From positions 124,001 through 188,000 of the forward strand of contig NZ_CAJHBU010000001.1 in NCBI RefSeq assembly GCF_904846715.1: 64,000 bases of DNA. The letters run 5' to 3'. The DNA is from Psychrobacter vallis. Lineage in GTDB: Bacteria > Pseudomonadota > Gammaproteobacteria > Pseudomonadales > Moraxellaceae. This document shows, piece by piece, positions 30,129 to 36,069 of this stretch. Position 1 is the stretch's first letter; each line of letters opens with the position of its first letter. The position numbers were made by a program, and so were the translations under genes. The notes beneath the pieces are model-generated. The model was not told the DNA's origin and did not search any database. It saw only the letters and a list, made by a program, of their open reading frames with translations.

Positions 30129-31484
30129 CTATACCTCACCTTGCCATTTACGGATAAACTCGCCATTTGGATCGTATTGCTCAGTTTGTTTGTTGAGATT
30201 AAATTGCCTGCACCCTCTCGGATCAGCGCCAACCCCTGCTAAATACTGCCAATTACCCCAATTGCTGGCGACATCATAATCGATAAGATGCTGCTCAAAG
30301 TAAGTCGCACCGTAACGCCAATCAAGACCCAGCTCATGAACCAAGCAGCTAGCGACCAATTGTCTGCCACGATTCGACATGTATCCTGTACTTTTTAGCT
30401 GATGCATACAGGCGTTAACGATAGAATATGGTGTTTGTCCATGTTTCCACTGCGCTAAACGCTTTTGATTAAACTGGGTCGATGGTGAGTGCTGCGCAAT
30501 GCCTTTAAGCCAAAATAGCTTTTGCTGATGAGCAGCGGCATACCAATAAAAATACTCACGCCAGAGCAGCTCGAACCATATCCAGTAAGTAGAATCATTT
30601 GCCATGATATCGCGCTCATAACGGCGCAGACGATTCAATACCATGTTCACAGACAGCGAACCATTGGCCAGCCAAGCGGAAAATTTCGTAGAGTGGGTCC
30701 AGTCATCAAGCACATTCCGCGTGGTTTTGTAAGTACTCGGCGCATCGGAGTCAAAATAACCCTTTAAGTGCTTTAGGCCACTTGACTCACCCCCTTTAAA
30801 ATTGGGCTGTTGTTGTATGTGCTCATTAAGCACTTGTGTATCAGACCTATCTATTTTAAAAAAGTATCCTTCTCTATTAAACATGCTTTCAGGCAATGGC
30901 GAGAGTGATTTCGGTGTTAAGCAAATGACACTGTCTTTTTCTGCATGCAATAAATCATGATTAGATTCAATTTTTTTGCGAAACTGCGTAAAACTTTTAG
31001 GTAGATGCTCTAACGGTAACTCATCAAATAAAGTCGCCGTTGTCTGTACATGCCAGCTTATTTGCGGATACTGCTTCTGTAAAAGCTCGTATACTTGGTT
31101 TTGATTATAATCTGCCGTTTTACTGACACAAATATCTGTGACGTATTGCTGCTCGATAAGCTCACTCAGCTGGGTGAACGAATCTGATGTTGCAGAGCTA
31201 TTGGGCAAATACAATAGCCGGTTTCCAAGCTGCATTAGTGATGCATTTAAGTCAGCCAAACTCTCGAACAAAAACTGCTTACGGGCATGACTCAGGCTGT
31301 CATAATGATAAGTATGACTGTCTTTATTTTTTAGTCTGTCAGTCAACGATGAGGCATAAACGAGCAATAACCGTCCATTGCTGGATAGCGCTGCCGCCTT
31401 TAACAAAGTCGCGTTGTCCGCTACTCGCAAATCGTTATGAAATAAAACCAACGTCACTTTTTTATTTGATGGCTGATTTGACAT
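30129..31484 (-). CDS. DASH-family cryptochrome / deoxyribodipyrimidine photolyase
   Basis: 451 residues. An N-terminal photolyase domain (VTLVLFHNDLRVADN, residues ~10-24) is followed by a helical FAD-binding domain: WIWFELLWREYFYWYA, NRGRQLVASCLVHELGLDWRYGA, and ASNWGNWQYLAGVGADPRGCRQFN. The GADPRG / RQFNLNKQTEQYDPNGEFIRKW end pattern is characteristic of cry-DASH, which repair cyclobutane dimers in single-stranded DNA and bind FAD and usually MTHF. The stop codon lies in a TATAGTGACTTGACTATA palindrome (30116-30133). Confidence 0.88.
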   Translation of the reverse strand: MSNQPSNKKVTLVLFHNDLRVADNATLLKAAALSSNGRLLLVYASSLTDRLKNKDSHTYHYDSLSHARKQFLFESLADLNASLMQLGNRLLYLPNSSATSDSFTQLSELIEQQYVTDICVSKTADYNQNQVYELLQKQYPQISWHVQTTATLFDELPLEHLPKSFTQFRKKIESNHDLLHAEKDSVICLTPKSLSPLPESMFNREGYFFKIDRSDTQVLNEHIQQQPNFKGGESSGLKHLKGYFDSDAPSTYKTTRNVLDDWTHSTKFSAWLANGSLSVNMVLNRLRRYERDIMANDSTYWIWFELLWREYFYWYAAAHQQKLFWLKGIAQHSPSTQFNQKRLAQWKHGQTPYSIVNACMHQLKSTGYMSNRGRQLVASCLVHELGLDWRYGATYFEQHLIDYDVASNWGNWQYLAGVGADPRGCRQFNLNKQTEQYDPNGEFIRKWQGEV

Positions 31485-31672: not shown

Positions 31673-31921
31673 ATGACCCAAAATAATACTACGACTGAAG
31701 AGAACAAGTCAGACGAAAAGCGTAAGCTCATTAATAAGTTTTTGATGAGACTGACGAAGGAGCAGCCGCAAATGTATTATGCTACGACTGGTGAGATATC
31801 TCGAAGCATCCATACCATGATAAAAGAACATACCAATCGCTTGTCCGTAGAAGAGCAAGCGCTGGTTAGACGTATGAGCATCGAAGAAATCGAAGGATTG
31901 CTGGGTTTTCATGCCAGATGA
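31673..31921 (+). CDS. Small conserved-looking hypothetical protein
   Basis: 82 residues, charged, no membrane segment or signal peptide, predicted mainly helical. The first 20 residues are Asn/Thr/Glu/Lys-rich, and the rest (KLINKFLMRLTKEQ, EISRSIHTMIKEH, RRMSIEEIEGLLGF) looks like three amphipathic helices. AGGAG eight bases before the ATG and a downstream terminator support it being a real gene. It is not a family I recognise. Confidence 0.6.
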   Translation: MTQNNTTTEENKSDEKRKLINKFLMRLTKEQPQMYYATTGEISRSIHTMIKEHTNRLSVEEQALVRRMSIEEIEGLLGFHAR

Positions 31922-32075: not shown

Positions 32076-33557
32076 TTAGAAAGGATAGTCACGAGGCTCG
32101 TTTTGCATTGAGATCCAATGCGTTCTGGTAAATTCTTCAAGTACCCACTCGCCATTGAAGCGTCCAATACCTGAGTTTTTCTCACCACCAAATGGTGTAT
32201 TGCTTTCATCATTCACTGAGATATCGTTGATGTGCGTCATGCCTGCTCTGATACCGCGAGCGAAGCGCAGACCTTTTTGCATATCAGCGGTAAATACAGC
32301 GCTAGACAAGCCATACATAGAATCATTGGCTATCGACAATGCATCGTCTTCATCTTTGGCACGGATAATACCGACCAACGGTCCAAACACTTCATTGCGT
32401 GATAGATCCATTTCGCGAGTTACTTCAGTAAAGATATGCGGTGGTACTACTTGGCCGTCAATCTCGCCACTTAGTATCATCTTTGCGCCTTCTTCCTGTG
32501 CTTTAGCAATTTTTTCTTTGAGCGATTTGACTTGTTTTTCATTGATGATAGGGCCAACAGCAGTGTCCTGTTTGCTAGGATCTCCCACGTTCAATGTTTT
32601 GACATGTGCCAAGAAGCGCTCTACAAACTCGTCATATATGTCATCTTCGACGATCACTCTGTTAATGGCGATACAGATTTGACCTTGGTGTAAAAACTTA
32701 CCAAAAGCAGCGGCTTTTACTGCTTGTTCAATATCAGCATCTTTCAATACCACAAACGGACTATTACCACCCAGCTCAAGTGCTACTTGCTTGATATACT
32801 CACCGCCATTGGCCAGCTCACCAATGTGCTTGCCTACTGAGGTTGAGCCTGTGAACGATATTAGGCTTGGGGCTTTGTGCTCGACGATGGCATCGCCTAT
32901 CTCGCTACCTGAGCCGACAACCACATTTAACAGACCCTTTGGCAGACCTGCTTCTTCAAACACTTTTGCAAGCAGTAAACCACCAGTCACCGGCGTATCG
33001 CTAGCAGGCTTTAACACAACAGCATTACCAAGCGCTAAAGCTGGTGCGATAGAGCGCTGTGTCAGATGTAGTGGAAAATTCCATGGGCTAATAACAGCGA
33101 CGATGCCAATAGGCTCACGGTAGATGAAGTTTTCTTTACCAGGAGTGTTCGATGGGCGAATCTCACCATGTACACGGTTAGGGAAAGTCGCTGCCTCAAG
33201 AGTGATCGCACGCGTCGCACTAAATTCGACCATGGCCTTAATACGCGTACTGCCCGACTCTTTAATCAGCCAATCGACGATTTCGTCTTGGCGCTGCTCC
33301 AATATATGAACAGCCTTATATAGCACAGCAGCACGAGTTGCAGGTGTCTGCTTCGCCCATTCGGCTTGAGCTTGGTCGGCGGCATCGTATGCTTCATTGA
33401 GTTGATCTTTAGTCGCTTGCTGAATTTCTACAAGCGTATCGCCATTATAGGGATTAGTATTGGTATTAATGCTATCATCTTTGCCTTTTTGCCATTCACC
33501 TGCGATGAACTGCAAATGAAAATCACTGTAGGCACTATTGTTATCGTTACTTGACAT
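32076..33557 (-). CDS. NAD(P)-dependent aldehyde dehydrogenase
   Basis: 493 residues from the ATG at 33557, chosen because AAGGA lies just upstream; an in-frame ATG 15 codons earlier lacks one. Motifs: [42 protein letters not shown] with the general base, and GQICIAINR with catalytic Cys295. It resembles the benzaldehyde/vanillin-type dehydrogenases, but the substrate is open. It is transcribed away from the NemR-like regulator, with a copy of the putative operator in the shared 339-bp spacer. That suggests a role in oxidising reactive aldehydes as one arm of the cluster to its right. Confidence 0.9.
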
Positions 33558-33896
33558 GGTTGTCCTTATTTTTACTTTGTTATGTGGCAGATTGATTTTC
33601 AATAAATTGATTGAATCGATTAAATTAAAGCGATCTTACCAGTAATAGGTTTGAACTATTATTAAATCATCACCTAAAAAACCATAGGATAACTGATATA
33701 AACAAAACCTGTCTTGATAGACGACTGGTCTAATGCTATCATAGCTGTCAATAAAACGAGTCTATTTTGTCTGTAAACATTGTTGATGAAATGTAATATA
33801 TAGGCATATATGCCACTAAAATATACCATCAATATGATATACAAATGACAGCCAATTACTCTATATGTACTATTATTAAAGGAGGCACTCCTACTT
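33558..33896. other. Divergent promoter region of aldehyde dehydrogenase and NemR-like regulator
   Basis: 339 bp, AT-rich, containing the first operator palindrome near its middle and AAAGGAGG just before the regulator ATG. No gene is supported. Confidence 0.6.
33718..33732. promoter_or_regulatory. Putative NemR-type operator 1
   Basis: TAGACGACTGGTCTA is an inverted repeat, TAGAC / GTCTA around a 5-bp centre. The same 15 bases recur at 34632-34646. It lies about midway between the divergent aldehyde dehydrogenase and regulator genes, as expected for an autoregulated TetR-family repressor. Confidence 0.75.
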
Positions 33897-34505
33897 ATGT
33901 CTAACACTAAAGAGGCTACCACCACTTCACTAGACACCAAGGCTCACTTACTTGCTACCGGCTACCAATTGATAGCCAAAAAAGGCTTTACCGCTGTTGG
34001 TCTAAAACAGATTTTGGACACAGCAGGTGTACCTAAGGGTTCTTTTTATCATTACTTTGCTTCTAAAGAAGCCTTTGGTGAAGCCATCATCAATCATTAC
34101 TTTAGCTTATATAAAACTCGTTTAAATATCATAGACGCACAAGACGTCAGCGCACAGCAAAAATTATATAACTACTTTCAAAACTGGTATGATACTCAAC
34201 AAAACGGCTGTGACGATGGCAAATGCTTAGTGGTCAAACTCAGTGCAGAGGTGGCCGATATGTCAGAAACCATGCGTAAAGCGCTCGATACTGGGTATCA
34301 ACAAACGACCATGTGGCTCGCTGACCAGATCAAAGCTGGCTGGCTAGATGGGTCCGTACCACGCCAAGATAACATTTCAGCTGAAAGTATGGCCAAGCGC
34401 TGGTATTTTGCGTGGCTGGGAGCAAGTCTGATTGCCAAGATCAGTCAAACAAACACACCTTTGGCAGAAATTTGGCACATGACCACCACTCAAATGGGTC
34501 GTTAA
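33897..34505 (+). CDS. nemR: NemR-like TetR-family transcriptional repressor
   Basis: 202 residues. The N-terminal TetR helix-turn-helix (HLLATGYQLIAKKGFTAVGL, GVPKGSFYHYFASKEAFG) is very like E. coli NemR. So is the ligand domain: KCLVVKLSAEVADMSETMR contains Cys110, the counterpart of NemR Cys106, and WLGASLIAKISQT contains Lys181, the counterpart of Lys175. That Cys/Lys pair is the reported hypochlorous-acid switch of NemR. Cys105 is an extra nearby cysteine. AAAGGAGG gives strong initiation. Identical palindromes upstream of this gene and of the next reductase gene suggest it represses both. The symbol is by resemblance, not proven orthology. Confidence 0.87.
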   Translation: MSNTKEATTTSLDTKAHLLATGYQLIAKKGFTAVGLKQILDTAGVPKGSFYHYFASKEAFGEAIINHYFSLYKTRLNIIDAQDVSAQQKLYNYFQNWYDTQQNGCDDGKCLVVKLSAEVADMSETMRKALDTGYQQTTMWLADQIKAGWLDGSVPRQDNISAESMAKRWYFAWLGASLIAKISQTNTPLAEIWHMTTTQMGR

Positions 34506-34511
34506 TAGCGT

Positions 34512-34549
34512 AGCCACCTTTGACGCTCTAATCAAAGGTGGCTTTTTTT
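34512..34549 (+). terminator. Terminator of the NemR-like gene
   Basis: The stem AGCCACCTTTGA / TCAAAGGTGGCT is followed by seven T's, six bases after the stop. The downstream genes therefore need their own promoter. Confidence 0.9.
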
Positions 34550-34618
34550 GTACCTAATCACTAGTCTAATAATAACGTTTAGAATTATGATGGGTGGTTA
34601 TCCTGTTTCATGAGAGTT

Positions 34619-34648
34619 TTGTAAACATTACTAGACGACTGGTCTAAT
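34619..34648 (+). promoter_or_regulatory. Putative promoter of the yqhD-like gene
   Basis: TTGTAA (34619-34624), an 18-bp spacer and TCTAAT (34643-34648). The operator palindrome covers the spacer end and most of the -10, a classic repression geometry. Confidence 0.5.
34632..34646. promoter_or_regulatory. Putative NemR-type operator 2
   Basis: An exact second copy of TAGACGACTGGTCTA, 115 bp before the yqhD-like start and 900 bp from the first copy, overlapping a plausible -10 hexamer. Confidence 0.75.
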
Positions 34649-34761
34649 TGATGTACAATGCGCATCAATCTTAGAGTATATGCACAAACACGCATTGCTG
34701 ACCATTCATTGTTTAACGTCAAAATATTTGACTGATATATTTTTATCACACTAGGAATTTT

Positions 34762-36035: not shown

Positions 36036-36069
36036 GGTAATAACGACTCAGAGCTGAGTCGTTATTACC
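36036..36069. promoter_or_regulatory. Perfect 15-bp palindrome upstream of the CurA-like gene
   Basis: GGTAATAACGACTCA and its exact complement flank GAGC. No T-run follows. A TATAAT at 36081-36086 lies such that a -35 would fall in the right arm, so it may be a protein-binding site; an atypical terminator of the yqhD-like gene is the alternative. Confidence 0.45.

Follow-up and report, generated by a model that had tools for sequence, protein, structure and literature searches.

AcuR of Rhodobacter sphaeroides is an acrylate-responsive TetR repressor encoded with acuI and dddL (acuR-acuI-dddL), and its operator, TAATAGAC/n6/GTCTATTA, lies over its own promoter (PMC3017554). AltR of Pantoea ananatis, a NemR-related repressor with one key cysteine, also has an inverted-repeat operator over its own promoter; the operator letters are CAATCTAC-N6-GTAGATTG, and the protein responds to thiosulfinates (PMC13178969). 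In NemR, residues C106 and K175 were reported as a hypochlorite switch, and C21 and C116 were reported to be essential for the electrophile response (PMC5297802, PMC7464077). Kindred work includes a PA2196-DNA structure (4l62) and a cited paper on NemR of Acinetobacter nosocomialis. Among the open-access papers listed for the letters of the box, none concerned the regulator described here, although wider print may differ, and among the matches listed for CurR, PA2196 and NemR by name none concerned a CurR operator. The extracts consulted of PMC12274486, PMC3739934 and PMC9342713 contain no operator letters.

The window analysed here is a stretch of 64,000 nucleotides from Psychrobacter vallis, in which a TetR-type gene stands between two copies of one 15-bp word, TAGACGACTGGTCTA (boxes 1 and 2, Table 1). 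We propose with high confidence that the two 15-mers are the predicted operators of the TetR-family product of the gene that they flank, a putative thiol-sensing repressor of the CurR/NemR type. At the level of sequence, this reading is based on the presence of the sites, on how they are placed in the promoters, on the fact that they are conserved together with the regulator and on the membership of the regulator in the CurR/NemR/AcuR group. The box has the same arms as the operator of AcuR, with a spacer of five bases where that of AcuR has six, and the box directly upstream of E. coli nemR, TAGACCGACTGGTCTA, is one base longer than the window box. The AltR operator is a different word.

Table 1. 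Positions of the genes, boxes and other elements around curR, counted from the first base of the window
Feature	Position	Strand	Remarks
DASH-family cryptochrome/photolyase gene	30129-31484		
82-aa reading frame beside aldH	31673-31921		no Pfam or NCBIfam match
aldH, aldehyde dehydrogenase, 493 aa from ATG	32076-33557	-	PF00171, 547 bits; divergent from curR
Sigma-70-type promoter toward curR, TTGATA - 17 - TATCAT	33714-33742	+	best-scoring promoter-like site of the region, 10/12
Box 1, predicted operator, aldH/curR spacer	33718-33732	+	TAGACGACTGGTCTA; core toward curR
curR/nemR-like TetR-family repressor gene, 202 aa	33897-34505	+	TetR_N and TetR_C_13
Terminator-like 12-pair stem with T-run, downstream of curR	34512-34543	+	folding energy of the stretch -19.4 kcal/mol
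Box 2, predicted operator, before yqhD	34632-34646	+	TAGACGACTGGTCTA
Probable -10 (TACAAT) of the yqhD promoter	34654-34659	+	
yqhD-like iron-containing alcohol dehydrogenase / aldehyde reductase, 403 aa	34762-35973	+	PF00465, PF25137; 500 bits on NF011717, under the cut-off of 645
15-pair hairpin in the yqhD-curA gap, weak T tail	36036-36069	+	possible attenuator/terminator
curA-like NADPH-dependent enone/curcumin reductase, 349 aa	36120-37169	+	NF058644, 568 bits, above the cut-off of 440
DJ-1/PfpI family protein, 225 aa	37395-38072	+	PF01965
Glutathione S-transferase-like protein, 209 aa	38077-38706	+	GST_N and GST_C families

The regulator and its putative sensor residues

The product of the TetR-type gene matches PF00440 (TetR_N) with 46.8 bits and PF16925 (TetR_C_13) with 35.2 bits, above the curated cut-offs of 24 and 27. 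Its best NCBIfam model is the CurR equivalog NF058643, on which it scores 199.8 bits and stays under the cut-off of 300; the AcuR equivalog NF051457 ranks second, with 121.4 bits against a cut-off of 247. Since the CurR model also gives E. coli NemR a score of 196, it does not distinguish the window regulator from NemR. We take PA2196 to be the CurR that adjoins curA in Pseudomonas aeruginosa. It was the top PDB sequence match of the regulator (3rd3/4l62, the title of the latter describing PA2196 as "bound to its operator DNA"), and NemR (4yze) was also among the nearest matches. The predicted model of the regulator, with a mean pLDDT of 87.4, was superposed on 4l62 with a Z score of 24.5 and 1.6 A over 189, and on E. 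coli NemR 4yze with a Z score of 24.5 and 1.5 A over 186.

The likeness to CurR/PA2196 lies in the best NCBIfam model, in the top sequence and structure match and in the curA-type reductase gene of the cluster; the differences are that the regulator falls short of the equivalog cut-off and that yqhD sits between curR and curA. Like CurR, E. coli NemR is also close to the window protein, with 80 of 186 aligned residues identical. C110 and K181 of the regulator align with C106 and K175 of NemR, and in an alignment of 34 proteins (the window protein and 33 of 80 named relatives) C110 was invariant and K181 was kept in at least 90%. In contrast, C21 and C116 of NemR are replaced by I26 and A120, and where E. 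coli NemR has nemA and gloA as neighbours the window regulator has aldH, yqhD, curA, DJ-1 and GST genes. A candidate operator word of the form TAGAC-(n5-6)-GTCTA at the promoters of the regulator and of its presumed target is a mark of the NemR/CurR/AcuR group, and the window locus has it at both promoters. Judged from its sequence, the TetR-type gene between the boxes is a member of this group. The preliminary description had called the system NemR-type, which stands for the wider NemR/CurR group and is not supported in the strict sense, given CurR as the best-matching model, CurR and AcuR scores that both stay under their cut-offs, the curA neighbour in place of nemA/gloA and the two missing cysteines.

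The two boxes, their promoters and their conservation

It had been proposed that the 15-mer occurs exactly twice, as a palindrome, the first copy lying in the spacer between the aldehyde dehydrogenase and the regulator. The count and the place of the first copy were borne out. Both copies read on the + strand, no further match to TAGACGACTGGTCTA with up to 3 mismatches was found in the window, and the whole genome (56 contigs, 3,222,629 bases) holds exactly 2 perfect copies, both at promoters; the word is not common outside promoters. Near copies in the genome with up to 2 mismatches amount to one with a single mismatch, within a sensor-kinase-like reading frame (its function judged by eye), and two with 2 mismatches, all of them within open reading frames. 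When scored with a matrix derived from the sites of the genus, both window boxes reach 29.3 bits and the next best stretch of the window 4.0. The term palindrome applies to the 5-bp arms, TAGAC and GTCTA, which are perfect; the core GACTG is asymmetric, and the reverse complement of the word departs from it at 3 of 15 positions.

We also considered whether the regulon extends more widely in this genome, using TAGAC-n5-GTCTA with one mismatch allowed. The pattern was found at 46 places, each of which matches on both strands (2 perfect, 44 with one mismatch), and the reversed control at 99; the wider regulon was rejected because the one-mismatch places do not exceed the control in number.

In the curR promoter, box 1 covers the final two bases of the -35 element (TTGATA) and most of the spacer. 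The same geometry, TTGCTA or TTGATA followed after 17 bp by TACCAT, TAACAT or TATCAT, surrounds the upstream box at 74 of the 81 genus sites examined. For box 2 two arrangements were found. The sequence TACAAT stands 7 bp past the box in 71 of 90 genus loci, and an alternative pair, TTGTAA-18-TCTAAT, which would place the box over the -10 element, is present in 41 of 90. It had been suggested that the second site covers the -10 of the yqhD-like gene. The box does overlap the promoter, and the alternative pair fits the suggestion, but since the best conserved -10 lies just downstream, box 2 more probably covers the -35 and spacer. We infer that a bound repressor would block either promoter. The T-run stem after curR stands between the regulator and yqhD, which makes it probable that a second transcription unit starts at box 2.

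Among 105 Psychrobacter genomes a match to the regulator was found in 101 and an ortholog in 99, two weak matches (G078 and G079, E about 1e-5 and 1e-8) being set aside as non-orthologs. The pattern TAGACGACYGGTCTA is present in 98 of the 105 genomes, that is, in 98 of the 99 ortholog holders, and the 99th (G032) carries a one-base variant, TAGACGACCAGTCTA. Neither word was found in any of the 6 genomes with no ortholog (G044, G063, G075, G078, G079 and G082), G063 and G082 being incomplete assemblies. A reversed control pattern gave 4 matches over all 105 genomes. Of the 99 ortholog loci 90 were read in detail, and in all 90 TAGACGACYRGTCTA occurs without change on the downstream (yqhD) side of the regulator. 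Upstream of the regulator a box within 1 mismatch was found in 81 of the 90; 8 have the regulator and no such box, which means that autoregulation through box 1 is not universal, and one further locus (L088), with 55 bp of upstream sequence covered, was counted apart. Pairwise identity was 0.989 and 0.964 in the boxes versus 0.469 and 0.359 in the ungapped flanks. The comparison of orthologous loci thus agreed with the preliminary description, and its proposal that the word is the operator of the flanked TetR-family gene is very probably right, as the word tracks the ortholog (99/99 versus 0/6) and is kept at its loci.

The box was also followed beyond the genus, in 80 named loci that encode regulator relatives of 42-93% identity, the best of 587 confirmed; they include Vibrio, Pseudomonas, Shewanella, Burkholderia, Methylobacterium and others. 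Of these 80 loci, 65 have an exact box no more than 350 bp upstream of the regulator (8 of 12 Psychrobacter loci and 57 of 68 others), and 76 have a box with up to 2 mismatches, against 0.26 of 80 expected from mononucleotide shuffles. Outside the genus 11 of 68 loci have no exact box, and three of these 11 (L159, L193 and L196) have nothing with up to 2 mismatches. The exact boxes of the non-Psychrobacter loci in this sample begin 15-70 bp before the regulator start; box 1 of the window, in contrast, ends 164 bp before the start of curR. In a sample of 398 genomes of the phylum, the motif with a five- or six-base spacer was found in 51. Thirty loci of this sample were selected by the motif alone; 28 of them have a CurR/AcuR-type match within 1.5 kb (that of L232 being short and weak), and the remaining 2 have a DJ-1-type match alone. 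A relative with 47% identity, with an exact box upstream and a second box just after it, was also seen on a contig titled Spongiactinospora, an actinobacterium (L216), which would reflect either transfer or contamination.

Presumed target genes, paralogs and other explanations

Whether curA, DJ-1 and GST are co-transcribed with yqhD is uncertain here because of the stem after curR and the second hairpin after yqhD. The order yqhD-curA-DJ-1 is kept in 55 of 58 genus loci with enough flank (60 examined), and the yqhD-curA gap has no box in any of the 57 loci, out of the 60, where both genes were placed. The hairpin within this gap is near-perfect, occurs once in the window and is a possible attenuator of the downstream genes. 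On the other side of the locus, the 82-aa reading frame beside aldH has relatives, 50-88% identical, at a similar place in many genus loci, and a DASH-family gene lies past aldH and this frame in a number of them.

One alternative is that box 1 chiefly serves the divergent aldehyde dehydrogenase and not the promoter of the regulator itself. The neighbour of curR could be judged in 86 genus loci, and in 74 of them it is aldH; an upstream box is present in 73 of these 74 loci versus 5 of the 12 without aldH (Fisher p 1.1e-6), a value that shared ancestry weakens, since the loci that lack aldH are mostly more diverged and the counts are therefore non-independent. In addition, the box is located inside a conserved promoter pointing to curR, its core is also directed toward curR, and one locus (L100) has aldH and no box. 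We consider it unlikely that aldH is the chief target of box 1; the association does suggest that box 1 also matters for aldH.

Another possibility considered is that a different TetR-family member of the group, such as an AcuR paralog encoded elsewhere, binds the boxes and that the local gene is incidental. An AcuR-like second match occurs in 19 genus genomes (18 with E below 1e-16 and a fragment in G049), and in 17 of these 19 the exact box word adjoins the AcuR-like gene. In three loci read gene by gene (L130, L133 and L134) a second box with one base changed is followed by an acuI-like gene, and AcuR of L130 and AcuI of L133, one each being tested, passed their NCBIfam cut-offs. Because the word is common to the AcuR-like paralogs, it does not by itself identify the regulator, and the equal arms of the R. 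sphaeroides operator (PMC3017554) point the same way. Against this, a search of the window genome with the regulator protein returned one TetR match at E<=0.001, the regulator itself, and the box tracks the ortholog also in genomes with no AcuR-like match. Binding by another protein of the group is thus very improbable in this genome, and the protein encoded between the boxes is retained as the predicted binder. Two tandem boxes were seen between the acuR-like and acuI-like genes at L130:3609-3657, and likewise in L133 and L134.

In other relatives the word precedes a pair of medium-chain reductase genes, either as the box (G001) or as a CAG variant (G080, G085, G087, G096 and G100), the variant having been sought in 31 of the 105 genomes. 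In six genus members (L132 and L138-L142) this pair was seen to consist of a quinone-oxidoreductase-like and a YhdH/AcuI-like gene. In the window genome the ortholog of the pair (a 93% identical protein) has no box upstream, the best candidate having 4 mismatches, and a search with AcuI returned only a 40% relative, which is the second gene of the same pair. The idea that the two sites set the borders of a regulon was not upheld, for in some relatives the word also precedes acuI, beside the AcuR-like paralog, or the reductase pair. The two boxes would define the local targets in this genome and not a fixed regulon, the word apparently being common to two related regulators.

That the repeated word is a product of chance or a mobile repeat with no regulatory function can practically be dismissed, in view of its two genome-wide copies, both at promoters, a conservation far exceeding that of the flanks and its recurrence, across many genera, beside this regulator group.

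Direction of the core and the proposed switch

When the regulator upstream regions of the 80 named loci were searched for the arms only, all 65 sites with a GACYG core pointed toward the regulator, 7 further arm sites with other cores being left out of this count. Over all loci, 214 distinct one-sided contexts were counted, many of them from close relatives and hence non-independent; in 209 the core reads toward the gene start and 5 were flagged as reversed. The count omits 115 two-sided contexts, 4 with no gene start and 37 sites with no GACYG core. Four of the flagged reversals (L169, L182, L190 and L209) were traced to artefacts of the start-codon rule, the box beginning 17-70 bp before the start of the regulator and pointing toward it. 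The fifth is the second site of the Spongiactinospora-titled contig, where no start of a gene of at least 150 aa lies within 420 bp in the direction of the box.

Overlap with the promoter is a poor explanation of this polarity because the position of the promoter differs between Psychrobacter and the others. Common descent of the sites could explain a part of it, and no mechanism was found in the portions of the literature consulted. We tentatively suggest that the operator is polar, its core GACYG being read toward the regulated gene, a reading that would span very different promoter positions and several proteobacterial classes. Polarity would imply that the repressor, though a symmetric dimer, binds or acts in an asymmetric way, perhaps with two dimers placed in offset registers or with a directional contact to RNA polymerase. 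Under the same suggestion, CurR-type and AcuR-type paralogs that respond to different inducers would share one word in a genome, and acrylate and oxidant or electrophile signals could cross.

For the window locus, we infer binding and repression, the inducer, the extent of the operon and the control of aldH along the following lines. In the unstressed cell a dimer or a pair of dimers would occupy box 1, in the -35/-10 interval of the repressor's own promoter, as well as box 2 over the yqhD promoter, so that both promoters would be blocked. A reactive oxidant or electrophile would attack Cys110 and the protein would be released. Release would raise the repressor itself and an aldehyde and enone detoxification set including the YqhD-like reductase; the CurA-like reductase, the DJ-1 protein and the glutathione S-transferase may be raised by read-through or shared control, and the divergent aldehyde dehydrogenase may likewise come under the influence of box 1.

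Such a switch would be of a known kind, with a box word that appears unusually well conserved and fixed in its direction. The analysis provides a sharply defined candidate operator for a Psychrobacter stress regulator. With the 15-letter word, members of this regulator group and their targets can be located across Proteobacteria at the cost of few false matches. The direction of the core, and a word common to CurR-type and AcuR-type regulators, bear on how TetR-type dimers read near-palindromes.
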